A stretch of DNA of 8,729 nt from an uncultured Bacillota bacterium (GTDB lineage: Bacteria > Bacillota_I > Bacilli_A > Erysipelotrichales > Erysipelotrichaceae), in assembly GCA_946619805.1 (NCBI GenBank), contig CAMOMM010000025.1:1-8729 (forward strand). Reading direction: 5' to 3'. Under the pieces are notes generated by a model. It ran no database searches and was not told the origin of the DNA. It saw nothing but the letters and a program-made list of their open reading frames with translations. Of this stretch, positions 648-6,182 are shown in pieces. The position numbers and the translations under genes were made by a program. Each line of letters opens with the position of its first letter. Position 1 is the first letter of the stretch.

Positions 648-1658
648 TCATGAGGCAGTAGATTCACGCTGAACCAGACTGCAGCTGAGTATTGTGTGTT
701 TTTCGGCCGGTTTGTTTCTGATCAGGTTCATCAGAACTTCAGAGGATATCCTGCCTAATGAGGAAGGACTTCTTTCGACGGTAGAGAGTGTCGGAGTTGA
801 TATCCTTGACTGGAACTGATTGTCAAAACCGTAGACCTTGATGTCTTCAGGAACCCTGTATCCCCGGCGTTTGACAGCTTCCATGGCTCCGATAGCCTGA
901 TTGTCACTGGTACAGATGATGCCGTCTACCTTGTTGCCCCGGGATATATAGTTGAAGACGGATGTTTCACTGTGTATGATTGAAGGTCCGCTTTCCAGCT
1001 GAATGATCGTCTGCCGGGAAGCCGGAAACCCATGATCTTTCAGGGCTTCCTGATATCCTTCATATCTGTTGGTGGAAACGTAGGTTGCCAGGAATGATGA
1101 TATGAAGATGATGTTGCGGCAGCCTTTCTCAATCAGTGAAGTGGTTGCCTGATAAATGCCGTTTTTGGCGTCGGAAGTAACGATTGGAAGATCCATGTCG
1201 TTTTGCGGCAGCCTGTCGAGCAGGACGATCGGGATGTTTCGTGAAATGACATCTTTTTCGATTTTTTTCTGACAGGAAATGACAATTATCCCGTCCACTC
1301 TCATTGAATCAAGACGGCGGAAGTATCTTCTCTCTTTCTGTGGATCATTGTCAGTGTTGCAGATGAACAGGGAATAATCGTAGTAATCAAAGAACTGTTC
1401 AATGGTTACGGCGATTGAAGAGAAGAAGTCGTTGTTGATGTTGGGAATTATAAGTCCGACAGTATGGGAGGCAGAGGATTTCAGTGATCTGGCATTGTTG
1501 TTGGAGACATAGCCGTACTGTTCTATTACCTTCATGACTTTTTCCTCAGTCTCTCTGGAGAAGCGTCCGCTCTTGTTGATGACATGCGAAACAGTTGCCG
1601 TGGAGACTCCGGCAAGTCTGGCAACATCGATAATTGATAACATTTTCTTATTTTCCAT
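648..1658 (-). CDS. LacI-family repressor, likely controls the divergent PTS operon
   Basis: This is a complete LacI/GalR-family repressor of 336 residues, the normal family length. Residues 8-28 are the helix-turn-helix (SIIDVARLAGVSTATVSHVI). Residues 56-62 (ARSLKSS) are the hinge, with the leucine that typically inserts at a central CpG. The effector domain starts at VGLIIPNINNDFF and keeps family pocket motifs: NRYEGY at 197-202, TSDNQA at 250-255 and FDN at 278-280. It is transcribed away from the EIIBC operon, and two palindromic operators with a central CpG lie between them, so it very probably represses that operon and perhaps itself. Its inducer is probably the imported sugar or its phosphate; this is inferred. 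ATG 1658 lies only about 6 bases from a strong -10 box, so the first methionine may be leaderless or the true start may be Met6 (1643). It resembles the HTH-less protein at 5338-6153 throughout the effector domain. Confidence 0.96.
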   Translation of the reverse strand: MENKKMLSIIDVARLAGVSTATVSHVINKSGRFSRETEEKVMKVIEQYGYVSNNNARSLKSSASHTVGLIIPNINNDFFSSIAVTIEQFFDYYDYSLFICNTDNDPQKERRYFRRLDSMRVDGIIVISCQKKIEKDVISRNIPIVLLDRLPQNDMDLPIVTSDAKNGIYQATTSLIEKGCRNIIFISSFLATYVSTNRYEGYQEALKDHGFPASRQTIIQLESGPSIIHSETSVFNYISRGNKVDGIICTSDNQAIGAMEAVKRRGYRVPEDIKVYGFDNQFQSRISTPTLSTVERSPSSLGRISSEVLMNLIRNKPAEKHTILSCSLVQRESTAS

Positions 1659-1700: not shown

Positions 1701-1716
1701 GATTAAACGTTTAACT
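1701..1716. promoter_or_regulatory. Upstream LacI-type operator (O1)
   Basis: GATTAAACGTTTAACT contains the perfect 12-base palindrome TTAAACGTTTAA at 1703-1714, with a central CpG as in PurR/CcpA-type LacI-family operators. It differs at two positions from GGTTAAACGTTTAACC, the consensus I draw from this site and the one at 1769. It lies about 60 bases upstream of the predicted EIIBC operon transcript start. It matches only the core of the catabolite-repression cre consensus and not its outer TG/CA, so a dedicated repressor fits better than CcpA. Confidence 0.72.
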
Positions 1717-1768: not shown

Positions 1769-1784
1769 GGTTAAACGTATAACC
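1769..1784. promoter_or_regulatory. Downstream LacI-type operator (O2) at the operon transcript start
   Basis: GGTTAAACGTATAACC is an imperfect 16-base palindrome with one mismatched base pair (positions 6 and 11 of the site) and a central CpG. It differs from the inferred consensus GGTTAAACGTTTAACC at a single base. It covers about +1 to +16 of the predicted transcript, just before the AAGGAGG ribosome binding site. Its centre is 68 bases from that of the upstream operator. Confidence 0.75.
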
Positions 1785-1798
1785 AACAAGGAGGATAA

Positions 1799-3169
<1,371 letters not shown>

Positions 3170-3250: not shown

Positions 3251-4186
3251 ATGTCTAATGTTGTTCGCCTGATCAGTGCAACAAAATCAGATTTCCAGCA
3301 AATGAGTGCCATGGAGCTCAAGGAATCCATATATAAATCAGAATCAAGAACCATCATGGGTCAGCATCTTCTCTTTGCCGGTCCGGGTGTCGTCAGAGGT
3401 GTCACAAATTCAGAACTGATGTTTGCCTGGGGTGCAGACATGGTCATGCTTAATACCATTGACCTCGACAATCTTGACAACAATCCGGGATTATGCGGAC
3501 TGTCCCTTAAGGAACTTAAGGAAAGATGCAACCGCCCGATCGGTGTCTATCTCGGCTGCCCGAAGGCCGGCTCAGAAGATGGCGGCAAGAAGGCCCTTTA
3601 CAGAAGAGAAGGCATGGTTGCGACAAAGGAACATATTCTCAAGTGCAGAGAGATCGGAGCAGATTTCATTGTTCTGGGTGGAAATCCTGGTTCAGGAACA
3701 TCTCTGAGTGATGTTATTGAGTGTACCAGACTGGCAAAATCCCTGTTAGGTGATGATATGATCATCATGGCAGGCAAGTGGGAAGATGGCATAACTGAAA
3801 AGGTACTGGGTGATCCGACTGCTGATTATGATACAAAAGACATTATCCGCCAGCTTATCGATGCCGGAGCAGACTGCATTGACCTGCCTTGCCCGGGATC
3901 AAGAGGCGGAATCACTGTTGAAGACATCCGTTCACTTGTTCAGTATGTACATCAGTATAAGCCAGGTACTCTGACAATGTGCTTTTTGGATTCATCAGTG
4001 GAATGTGCTGATGAACGGACCATCAGACAGGTCGCAATTCTGATGAAACAGACCGGAGCAGACATTCACGCAATCGGTGACGGCGGCTTTGGTGGATGCA
4101 CCTGGCCAAAGAACATCTATCAGCTGTCTGTATCGATCAAGGGCGAACATTATACCTGGTTCAGAATGGCCAGTGTAAACAAGTAA
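3251..4186 (+). CDS. Conserved barrel-like protein of unknown function in a sugar PTS operon
   Basis: I cannot assign a function. The 311-residue protein has no signal peptide or membrane segment and looks like a (beta/alpha)8 barrel. GAD recurs at 61, 137, 206 and 269, each followed by a hydrophobic strand: GADMVMLN, GADFIVLGGNPGSGTS, GADCIDLPCPGSRGG and GADIHAIGDGGFGG. Glycine-rich segments at 143-151 and 277-282 could bind a phosphate group. Other distinctive segments are LFAGPGVVRG (41-50), RPIGVYLGCPKAG (95-107) and AGKWEDG (174-180). CGGAGGT lies 7 bases before the ATG. Its place between the permease and a sugar-phosphate isomerase suggests a role on the same sugar or its phosphate. A role comparable to SgcQ/BtpA-type barrel proteins of sgc-like PTS operons is possible, but I see no diagnostic motif. 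I recall a hypothetical gene at the equivalent place in a Listeria cluster; this is not verified. Confidence 0.85.
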   Translation: MSNVVRLISATKSDFQQMSAMELKESIYKSESRTIMGQHLLFAGPGVVRGVTNSELMFAWGADMVMLNTIDLDNLDNNPGLCGLSLKELKERCNRPIGVYLGCPKAGSEDGGKKALYRREGMVATKEHILKCREIGADFIVLGGNPGSGTSLSDVIECTRLAKSLLGDDMIIMAGKWEDGITEKVLGDPTADYDTKDIIRQLIDAGADCIDLPCPGSRGGITVEDIRSLVQYVHQYKPGTLTMCFLDSSVECADERTIRQVAILMKQTGADIHAIGDGGFGGCTWPKNIYQLSVSIKGEHYTWFRMASVNK

Positions 4187-4215: not shown

Positions 4216-4680
4216 ATGAAACTGGCAATTGGAAATGACCACGTAGCATTGGAAATGAAAAAGGAAATCAAGGAATATCTCGAAGAAAAGGGATATGAAG
4301 TAATAAATGTCGGCACGGATTCAAGTGAAAGATTCAACTATCCTGTTTCCGGCTATAAGGTAGCCAGAATGGTAGCTGACGGTGAAGTTGACGGCGGTAT
4401 CCTGATCTGCGGGACAGGGGTAGGAATCTCTCTGTCAGCCAATAAGGTCCATGGCATCAGAGCCTGCGTATGTTCTGATCCATATACAGCCAGACTGTCA
4501 AAGCAGCACAACAACACCAACATCATCGCCTTCGGTGCCAGAGTAATTGGAATCGAGACAGCCAAGATGATCGTTGATGAATGGCTTAACGCCAAGTATG
4601 AAGGCGGCAGACATCAGGTCAGGATCGACCAGATAAAGGAAATCGAGGAAACTCAGCATCTGAAGGCTGCGGAGGAATAA
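4216..4680 (+). CDS. rpiB: RpiB-type sugar-phosphate isomerase (ribose/allose 6-phosphate)
   Basis: This is a cytosolic aldose-ketose isomerase of the RpiB/LacAB family, 154 residues, a normal length. Catalytic features of RpiB are present: GNDHVA with Asp8 and His9, Cys65 in GGILICGTGVGISLSANK as the predicted catalytic base, and His98 in SKQHNNTN. The later segment YEGGRHQVR also matches E. coli RpiB closely, including the C-terminal arginines that bind phosphate. RpiB interconverts ribose 5-phosphate and ribulose 5-phosphate. E. coli RpiB is also known to isomerise allose 6-phosphate to allulose 6-phosphate (AlsI activity). With an AlsE-like gene directly downstream and a PTS upstream, the hexose reaction is the likelier job here. 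Its ribosome binding site is a doubled AAGGA about 10 bases from the ATG, less ideal than those of its neighbours. Confidence 0.94.
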   Translation: MKLAIGNDHVALEMKKEIKEYLEEKGYEVINVGTDSSERFNYPVSGYKVARMVADGEVDGGILICGTGVGISLSANKVHGIRACVCSDPYTARLSKQHNNTNIIAFGARVIGIETAKMIVDEWLNAKYEGGRHQVRIDQIKEIEETQHLKAAEE

Positions 4681-4682
4681 AT

Positions 4683-5336
4683 ATGTCAGAAAGACTGTTA
4701 TGTCCGTCAATGATGTGCGCCAACTACGGACATCTGGCTGATGAAGTAAGAGCACTTGATGATGCCGGTGTAGACATCTTCCATTGCGATATCATGGATG
4801 GGACCTTTGTACCAAACTTTACCATGGGTGTCATGGACGTGGAAACCGTCAGAAGATATACCGATAAGCTGGTAGACTGCCATCTGATGATCGAGAACCC
4901 GGCCAATAAGGTCGACTGGTTCATCAAGGCAGGTGCCAATATTATCTATATTCATCCGGAAAGTGAAAGATATGTAGTCAAGACACTGGCCCATATCAAG
5001 GAAATGGGAGCTTATGCCGGTATTGCGGTCAACCCTGATACTTCTGTAGCTTCTCTGTCGGAAATACTGAACCTGTGTGATTATGTGATGGTAATGACGG
5101 TTAATCCGGGCTTTGCCGGACAGGCCTTCATTGACTTTACCAAGAAGAAGATCAAGCAGCTGGTTGAACTGAAGGAAGAGTATGGTTTCAAGATCATGAT
5201 CGACGGTCACTGTACACCGGAAGTCATTGAAGATCTCAGTAATCTTGGTGCAGACGGATTCATCCTCGGTTCATCAGCCTTATTCCGCAAGGGAAAGACC
5301 TATAAGGAAATCATAAGGGAATTAAGAGGTGAGTAA
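4683..5336 (+). CDS. alsE: Allulose-6-phosphate 3-epimerase (AlsE-like), Rpe superfamily
   Basis: This 217-residue (beta/alpha)8 epimerase keeps the metal and acid-base set of the ribulose-phosphate 3-epimerase family: His34 and Asp36 in FHCDIMDGTFVPN, His67 in DCHLMI and Asp174 in IMIDGH. Ser9 and the phosphate-binding GSSALF (196-201) are also present. Three signature positions look like E. coli AlsE rather than Rpe: SMMCAN (9-14) against AlsE SLMCMD and Rpe-type SILSAD; VNPGFAGQ (140-147) against AlsE VDPGFAGQ and Rpe VNPGFGGQ; and IHPES (90-94) against AlsE LHPET. I therefore favour conversion of D-allulose 6-phosphate to fructose 6-phosphate, with pentose-phosphate epimerase activity as the alternative. 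GGAGG inside the end of rpiB lies 7 bases before the ATG, and the gap to rpiB is 2 bases, so translation is probably coupled. Confidence 0.85.
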   Translation: MSERLLCPSMMCANYGHLADEVRALDDAGVDIFHCDIMDGTFVPNFTMGVMDVETVRRYTDKLVDCHLMIENPANKVDWFIKAGANIIYIHPESERYVVKTLAHIKEMGAYAGIAVNPDTSVASLSEILNLCDYVMVMTVNPGFAGQAFIDFTKKKIKQLVELKEEYGFKIMIDGHCTPEVIEDLSNLGADGFILGSSALFRKGKTYKEIIRELRGE

Positions 5337-5337
5337 G

Positions 5338-6153
5338 ATGAAGAAGATTGGCATGATCATACCTACTACCGATAATTCATTCTTCTCATTTCTGGGACAC
5401 CAGGTCCAGAAACAGTTAAGAGAGGATGAACAGCTGTTCTTATGCGATTCAAGCAATTCTTCAGAAAGGGAGAAGGAATATCTTAAGACACTGTCTTCAT
5501 TCTGCGATGGCATAATCGATGTATCAGGACTGTCTGAATTAGGTGAAGGTCTTCTTGAAGAGAACTACCCGTTAGTATTGGTTGACAGGAAACCCGTTAC
5601 CGCAAGAGAAATACCGTGGGTTGGCAATGATGACAGTTCAGCCATGGAAGAAGCCACCCAGTATCTTATTCACAAGGGATGCAGAAACATTCTGTTAATG
5701 CCGGGATACATAGCTGAAAAGCAGGAAAACCCGAGAATAGCCGGATACAGAAAGGCTCTGGAGAACAATGGCCTTCAATATGATGAATCATTTGTCCTTA
5801 ACAGAAAAGGGTTTAAGAGTTCGGAAGAGGAAACCGCTGAACTGGTCATGGAATATTTCCGCAAGGGAATAAAGATCGACGGCATCATTACTTCTTCAGA
5901 CAGAGCAGCCTTTGGTGCAGTTAAGGCTCTGGGAAGATTAGGATACTATGTGCCTGAGGATGTCAGACTGATATCATTTGACAACAGTCCGTATTCCTTA
6001 ATGGCATCACCGTCTATTACCTCAATTGACCGCAATGGAGCCCGGATTGCCCGGAAAGCTCTGGAGGCATTAAGATGTCTGTTGGAGGGAAACAGGCCGG
6101 AAAGGGAAACAGTCATTCCTGTTTCACTGGTAAAAAACGACAGTACAAGATAG
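5338..6153 (+). CDS. LacI-like sugar-sensing protein lacking the DNA-binding domain
   Basis: The 271 residues match the effector-binding domain of LacI/GalR repressors from its first strand (KKIGMIIPTTDNSFFSFLG) to the usual C-terminus (PVSLVKNDST). The N-terminal helix-turn-helix and hinge are absent. Pocket motifs are intact: LVDRK (81-85), RIAGYRKAL (133-141), TSSDRAAFGA (185-194) and FDN (214-216). There is no signal peptide, so it is not an ABC-type exported binding protein. The start is ATG 5338, one base after the alsE stop, because AGAGGTGAG lies just upstream; the in-frame GTG at 5329 is inside that site. The preceding DNA codes for the end of the epimerase, so no HTH can have been missed. 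It is clearly paralogous to the LacI protein at 648-1658. A role as hetero-oligomerising co-sensor or sugar-phosphate sink is inferred; no enzyme motif is visible. Confidence 0.92.
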   Translation: MKKIGMIIPTTDNSFFSFLGHQVQKQLREDEQLFLCDSSNSSEREKEYLKTLSSFCDGIIDVSGLSELGEGLLEENYPLVLVDRKPVTAREIPWVGNDDSSAMEEATQYLIHKGCRNILLMPGYIAEKQENPRIAGYRKALENNGLQYDESFVLNRKGFKSSEEETAELVMEYFRKGIKIDGIITSSDRAAFGAVKALGRLGYYVPEDVRLISFDNSPYSLMASPSITSIDRNGARIARKALEALRCLLEGNRPERETVIPVSLVKNDSTR

Positions 6154-6182
6154 AGCTGTTTGAATAACAGCTTTTTCTTTTT
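6154..6182 (+). terminator. Intrinsic terminator of the PTS operon
   Basis: AGCTGTT at 6154-6160 pairs perfectly with AACAGCT at 6166-6172 around the 5-base loop TGAAT, followed by TTTTCTTTTT. The stem begins on the base after the TAG stop of the HTH-less LacI-like gene. It closes the operon and separates it from the gene at 6241. Confidence 0.88.

Follow-up and report, generated by a model that had tools for sequence, protein, structure and literature searches.

The operon and its last gene

The DNA analysed here is a stretch of 8,729 nucleotides from an uncultured member of the Erysipelotrichaceae (hereafter the window). It contains an operon in which genes for a PTS EIIBC, a DUF7916 protein, an RpiB-type isomerase and an Rpe/AlsE-type epimerase precede a gene coding for a LacI-type effector core that lacks an HTH, and a full-length LacI-type regulator is encoded divergently (Table 1). 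One base separates the stop codon of the epimerase gene from the ATG of the HTH-less gene; the epimerase gene is intact, in agreement with the preliminary description of this DNA, which had recognized its coding end there. The window epimerase scored above the cut-off of the rpe HMM and below the cut-off for E. coli AlsE. A gene coding for a PstS-like binding protein (PF12849, 6241-7686) adjoins the operon; this protein begins with a hydrophobic stretch and shares 89% identity with its counterpart in G004.

Table 1. Genes and sites of the HTH-less locus in the window.
Feature	Position	Strand	Evidence or remark
Divergent LacI-type regulator, full-length with HTH	648..1658	-	34% identity to the HTH-less protein
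Palindrome TTAAACGTTTAA, likely operator of the divergent LacI	1703..1714		Site comparison across loci
Second, variant site TTAAACGTATAA, likely operator	1771..1782		Site comparison across loci
PTS EIIBC, nearest the beta-glucoside type	1802..3169	+	Below the cut-off of that model
DUF7916 protein	3251..4186	+	PF25509, 3.9e-92
RpiB-type sugar-phosphate isomerase	4216..4680	+	Frequent, not constant neighbour
Ribulose-phosphate / allulose-6-phosphate 3-epimerase (Rpe/AlsE type)	4683..5336	+	PF00834, 2.7e-59; TIGR01163, over cut-off
Shine-Dalgarno-like AGAGGTGAG	5325..5333	+	Sequence; within the 3' end of the epimerase gene
HTH-less LacI-type effector-core protein	5338..6153	+	271 aa; main finding
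Terminator-like hairpin and T tail, 3' of the HTH-less gene	6152..6174	+	Hairpin scan; number of matches (3 found, 3.4 expected) not above chance

A Pfam search of the HTH-less protein identified a complete LacI-type effector core (PF00532/PF13377/PF13407), while the LacI HTH (PF00356) was absent and no extra domain was found. In the AlphaFold model (pLDDT 89.8) the protein begins at beta-strand 1 and the hinge is absent, and by inspection neither a signal peptide nor a lipobox was evident, with MKKIGMIIPTTDNSFF leading directly into strand 1. These results confirm the earlier view of a full effector core without HTH, hinge or, as judged by inspection, signal peptide. Structure comparison identified the CcpA core as the nearest fold, with the cores of RbsR, PurR and LacI also near. 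The cores of LacI-family proteins are textbook examples of gene switches, with periplasmic binding proteins as known relatives. The possibility that the gene codes for a periplasmic binding protein was set aside because of how the sequence begins and how near it is to LacI proteins; unlike the periplasmic ribose-binding protein and its kin, the protein has no evident signal peptide and falls in a LacI subfamily (see below).

Homologues, selection and origin

A search of about 5.8 billion proteins returned 277 homologues, the best 120 of which were used for details. These 120 proteins were 263-281 aa long, all with a start Met and with N-terminal extensions of only 0-8 residues, and their precomputed Pfam annotation included a LacI HTH for none of them. 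HTH-bearing orthologues at the locus, which the preliminary description had named as evidence against its proposal, were not present among these best 120 of 277. One HTH-less protein (P0018) has been labelled 'LacI family transcriptional regulator' by one source. Cultured gut commensals with the gene include Sharpea porci (P0044) and strain M10-2 (L029). Genome searches (matches at E <= 1e-60; up to nine candidates scored per genome in the search of the family and up to eight in that of the order) detected the HTH-less gene in 25 of 315 genomes of the order, namely 24 of 272 in the family and one of 43 outside it (G042), and, when 395 genomes spread over the class were searched, in the window's own genome and in G042 alone. 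Two HTH-less genes are truncated by contig ends, that of G091 at 227 aa (371 bits) and that of G116 at 170 aa (244 bits); the others had open frames of 272-311 aa and scored 355-478 bits, separate from 19 HTH-bearing genes found in the search of the order (207-303 bits, frames of at least 336 aa). G091 (98% complete; isolate RGIG4473) was included among the 25 genomes despite the partial fragment, the gene of G116 being partial as well. Two contigs of G091, L031 (1-686) and L032 (1-351), begin inside the HTH-less gene, and these fragments, 96% alike in DNA, represent either two gene copies or strain variation within the assembly.

No HTH was found upstream of the HTH-less gene at 24 loci, the window included; this upstream DNA, together with a related assembly, rules out a frame error or hidden HTH, a reservation attached to the original proposal. 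A chance ORF or pseudogene is ruled out by the uniform homologue lengths and by pairwise dN/dS values of 0.03-0.11 (eight computable pairs), which are rough because dS was 0.9-3.0 and exceeded 1 in every HTH-less pair except one. They are near those of the divergent LacI (0.04-0.16, six pairs); synonymous sites were saturated in a ninth HTH-less pair (window versus G006) and in one LacI pair. R133, S187, D188 and D215, positions that we take to correspond to sugar contacts in LacI and PurR, are invariant in 120 of the best 120 of 277 homologues, and an alignment of 35 sequences contained 51 invariant positions. The binding-pocket signature, previously noted as intact, is kept under purifying selection, and the decayed reading frame or lost pocket residues also raised as counter-evidence were not encountered. 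The gene codes for a real HTH-less LacI-type protein and reflects neither an error of assembly nor gene decay. With its core complete and its pocket invariant, the protein is expected to have kept the ability to bind a sugar or a sugar phosphate. Six residues (W94, R156, R189, F192, P218 and Y219) are conserved to at least 90% in the HTH-less clade and differ in DNA-binding relatives; R189, F192 and Y219 are fixed, versus a consensus of N, I and Q (56-60%) in those relatives. All six are candidate positions of a new contact, and some of them presumably fall on the C-subdomain dimer face (LacI numbering).

In a tree of 86 hand-picked proteins (31 HTH-less, including the window's, and 55 labelled HTH, including the window's LacI), all 31 HTH-less rows were located on one side of a branch with support of 100/100, and the same branch was present in 100% of 200 bootstrap trees. 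The same single HTH-less clade (100/100) was obtained from core columns only with 80 rows, none of them a periplasmic protein; this tree left out the long-branch rows L018, L019, L023 and L024 as well as P0157 (269 aa) and P0178 (285 aa), two proteins without HTH annotation whose start Met falls within the core or shortly ahead of it and which resemble 5'-truncated gene models. The trees were left unrooted by the program; with an outgroup picked by the analyst, the HTH-less clade lies inside a subfamily (100/98) that includes the window's divergent LacI as well as L119 and L120, LacI genes adjoining EIIBC-Rpe-DUF7916-RpiB clusters in G310 and G068. The HTH-bearing neighbours of the clade are L059 (G214), P0167 and L060; since their order is partly weak (supports of 93/9, 99/88 and 94/70), we claim no specific LacI gene as the ancestor. 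The simplest reading of the trees is that a regulator of such an operon would have lost its DNA-binding part once.

According to the two-domain definition of LacI/GalR-family transcription factors in the accessible part of PMC4052901, the protein is not a LacI-family factor, because the HTH was tested for and is absent; it derives from the LacI family without being a member by this definition. Its whole effector core, pocket signature, nearest folds and position inside the family in the tree are like those of the family. It differs from the family as described in that part of PMC4052901 by the absence of HTH and hinge, a feature shared by the best 120 of 277 homologues, and also by being encoded behind an enzyme and by being kept in genomes without a related DNA-binding LacI.

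Linkage to the epimerase and variation of the other neighbours

DNA upstream of the HTH-less gene was available in 24 of the 25 genomes, and in all 24 the gene directly upstream codes for an epimerase with 83-100% identity to that of the window. At each of these loci the distance from the rpe/alsE stop to an in-frame start of the HTH-less gene is -23 to +10 nt, and in 13 of 24 a start overlapping by 4 nt is available, a spacing that would suit translational coupling. An epimerase at E <= 1e-100 was found in 27 of the 272 family genomes: in the 23 with at least 83% identity the HTH-less gene lies directly downstream (23/23), and in the four with 68-73% the family genome search gave no HTH-less match, the gene not being downstream in G068, G069 and G295 and the contig ending behind the epimerase in G123. 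G091, whose HTH-less fragments sit at contig ends, gave no epimerase at E <= 1e-100. Such linkage indicates a shared function and does not by itself indicate contact. Median pairwise identity was 57% for the HTH-less protein versus 89% for the epimerase, and this much faster evolution argues against a large rigid interface. Pairwise distances of the HTH-less protein correlated no more than moderately with those of Rpe (Pearson 0.58) and of RpiB (0.68 over 18 loci). In G006 the HTH-less protein falls with genus g3, whereas Rpe falls with genus g1 (support 74-81), a disagreement between the trees indicating that both genes have not always moved together. In G042, which belongs to another family, the HTH-less protein (68%) and Rpe (91%) are both nearest genus g3 and RpiB (88%) is nearest g48, the margins amounting to no more than a few per cent. 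The two genes appear to have moved together mostly, not always.

The remaining neighbours vary. RpiB with at least 80% identity is encoded at 18 of the 25 HTH-less loci, and an EIIBC with at least 85% identity together with the divergent LacI at eight (the window and seven others); because some loci are short contigs, absence of EIIBC or LacI from a locus is not absence from the genome, and in G091 and G110 the two genes lie together elsewhere. Searches of whole genomes (matches listed to E <= 1e-30) detected a dedicated LacI with at least 39% identity in 10 of the 25 genomes and none in the other 15, among them G042, G192 and G193, each 99% complete. With these counts, neither EIIBC nor the divergent LacI can be the generally linked partner of the gene. 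The EIIBC-rpiB-alsE order, whose conservation the preliminary description had put forward as a check, is constant in its epimerase (24/24) and not in RpiB or EIIBC. Changing neighbours include GH1 hydrolases, ROK kinases, a rhamnosidase, an EIIC, an amidohydrolase and an SBD_N/NBD_C kinase-like protein. Near one HTH-less locus (L070, 3367-5244), phosphomannose-isomerase-type and ROK kinase domains are combined in one 625-aa protein. A second full-length LacI-like match (L112, G168:C14:8051-9097), 37% identical to the window LacI, contains an in-frame TAA.

In relatives, the DUF7916 protein is 68-96% identical beside a PTS gene or isomerase; among 392 genomes of the phylum, 34 gave a match (28 of them above the cut-off), 14 control genomes gave none, and no paper naming it was found in the open-licence PMC literature. 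Three DUF7916 matches, L166 (G712), L172 (G317) and L173 (G475), from genomes of 0.7-0.8 Mb, each contain one in-frame TGA, consistent with TGA being read as tryptophan.

Both likely operator sites of the window lie between the LacI and EIIBC genes. A scan of the 25 HTH-less loci (the LacI loci of G091 and G110 left out) detected TTAAACGTTTAA at seven of the eight loci with a divergent LacI, and neither this palindrome nor close variants of it at the 17 loci without one, several of which are short contigs. In 500 letter shuffles of the window the palindrome gave a mean of 0.02 sites.

Pathway and possible roles of the HTH-less protein

With an RpiB-type isomerase, an Rpe/AlsE-type epimerase and a sugar PTS, the window has als-type gene content. 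In the accessible part of PMC5893763, lmo0734-0736 of Listeria monocytogenes are reported as required for growth on D-allose, and the cassette lmo0734-0739 is listed as coding for a LacI, an epimerase, an isomerase, a TIM-type protein, a beta-glucoside-type PTS gene product and a 6-phospho-beta-glucosidase. The likeness to the window, which is one of gene content and primer-encoded protein starts and not of full proteins, extends to an EIIBC nearest the beta-glucoside kind, GH1 (in relatives), RpiB and Rpe/AlsE, and the starts read MSKKLICPS, MKIAIGNDHV and MDYQKLAKE in the Listeria primers versus MSERLLCPS, MKLAIGNDHV and MDYKKTASE in the window. The Listeria LacI begins like an HTH protein (MKKTSIKDI), and that part of the paper describes no second LacI-type gene for the cassette. 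Allose-6-phosphate is among the LacI-family effectors listed in the accessible part of PMC4052901. By analogy, the window operon may handle D-allose or its glycosides; a search of open-licence PMC papers for an alloside with 6-phospho-beta-glucosidase returned nothing.

Lacking a DNA-binding part, the protein would have to exert its output through protein contact or simple binding, and we chose the epimerase as its partner because it is the only constant companion of the gene. Our leading suggestion, offered tentatively, is that the protein descends from a repressor that lost the ability to bind DNA a single time, and that it now serves the epimerase as a partner binding a sugar phosphate. An ancestral LacI-type repressor would have lost its DNA-binding part in a single event; the pocket of the remaining core would bind a sugar phosphate of the pathway (of the allose-6-, allulose-6- or ribulose-5-phosphate class); and the protein would contact the epimerase, or the epimerase-isomerase pair, changing flux by adjusting epimerase activity. 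Given the missing DNA-binding half and the one epimerase gene directly upstream, the former gene switch would likely tune the enzyme. In a stricter version, to which we are less inclined, a LacI-family repressor would have been converted, in one event, to a dedicated allosteric epimerase subunit that senses the sugar phosphate and controls the enzyme by contact. The preliminary description had considered contact with an enzyme or with EIIBC; the former fits best, the enzyme being the epimerase (24/24 and 23/23) and the contact itself putative, and the latter is unsupported as a general rule, EIIBC being encoded at only 8 of 25 loci. Cra of E. coli, a LacI-family protein, has been reported to contact the sugar-phosphate enzyme FruK; Cra retains its HTH, whereas the protein described here has lost it.

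As an anti-repressor, the protein would form hetero-oligomers with the divergent LacI, as was suggested earlier, or with another LacI-family protein, and these would weaken operator binding in a feedback from the end of the operon. LacI-family cores dimerise, and the protein shares 34% identity and a subfamily (100/98) with the local LacI, which together with EIIBC is encoded at the same locus in the window and seven genomes, seven of these eight loci having TTAAACGTTTAA. Id proteins and SinI, which inhibit a regulator, are likewise relatives that have lost the DNA-binding part. However, unlike in those systems, a dedicated DNA-binding relative (at least 39% identity) exists in the window and nine genomes and is missing in 15 of 25, including the three that are 99% complete; moreover, the palindrome is absent from the 17 loci without a divergent LacI, several on short contigs, and R189, F192 and Y219 are fixed away from the consensus of DNA-binding relatives. 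Hetero-oligomers with the divergent LacI are hence unsupported as a general rule and the explanation as a whole is rather unlikely, anti-repression of the local LacI being possible where that LacI exists.

A protein that only binds, stores or shields a reactive sugar phosphate, as a buffer or carrier making no protein contact, would account for the complete core, the invariant pocket residues, the lack of an extra domain and the coupling of the gene to enzymes making the metabolite, but a free buffer needs no one-to-one pairing with one epimerase type and would require a high copy number, and we consider this quite improbable. Smaller still is the weight that we give to contact with a general regulator or PTS protein in the style of CcpA and HPr, tying the pathway to sugar supply: CcpA is often among the nearest solved cores, several of them complexed with HPr or Crh, yet identity is only about 26%, other LacI-family cores lie within 2-3 Z units, and such contact gives no reason for the epimerase linkage. 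That the protein is a functionless relic carried along with the epimerase gene, as its missing DNA-binding part and the lack of a known role might suggest, is hardly credible, being contradicted by the selection data, the length of 263-281 aa in all of the best 120 of 277 homologues and the 51 positions invariant in 35 sequences.

In titles and abstract starts of open-licence PMC papers, we found no description of an HTH-less LacI-type core encoded in an operon of this kind. In some gut bacteria, the half of a repressor that binds sugar is still encoded, directly behind one epimerase gene, with the DNA-binding half missing, which suggests that the label 'LacI family transcriptional regulator' is misleading for such proteins. 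If the proposed partnership with the epimerase is true, this would be a transcription factor leaving transcription, and an enzyme regulator made from a gene regulator.
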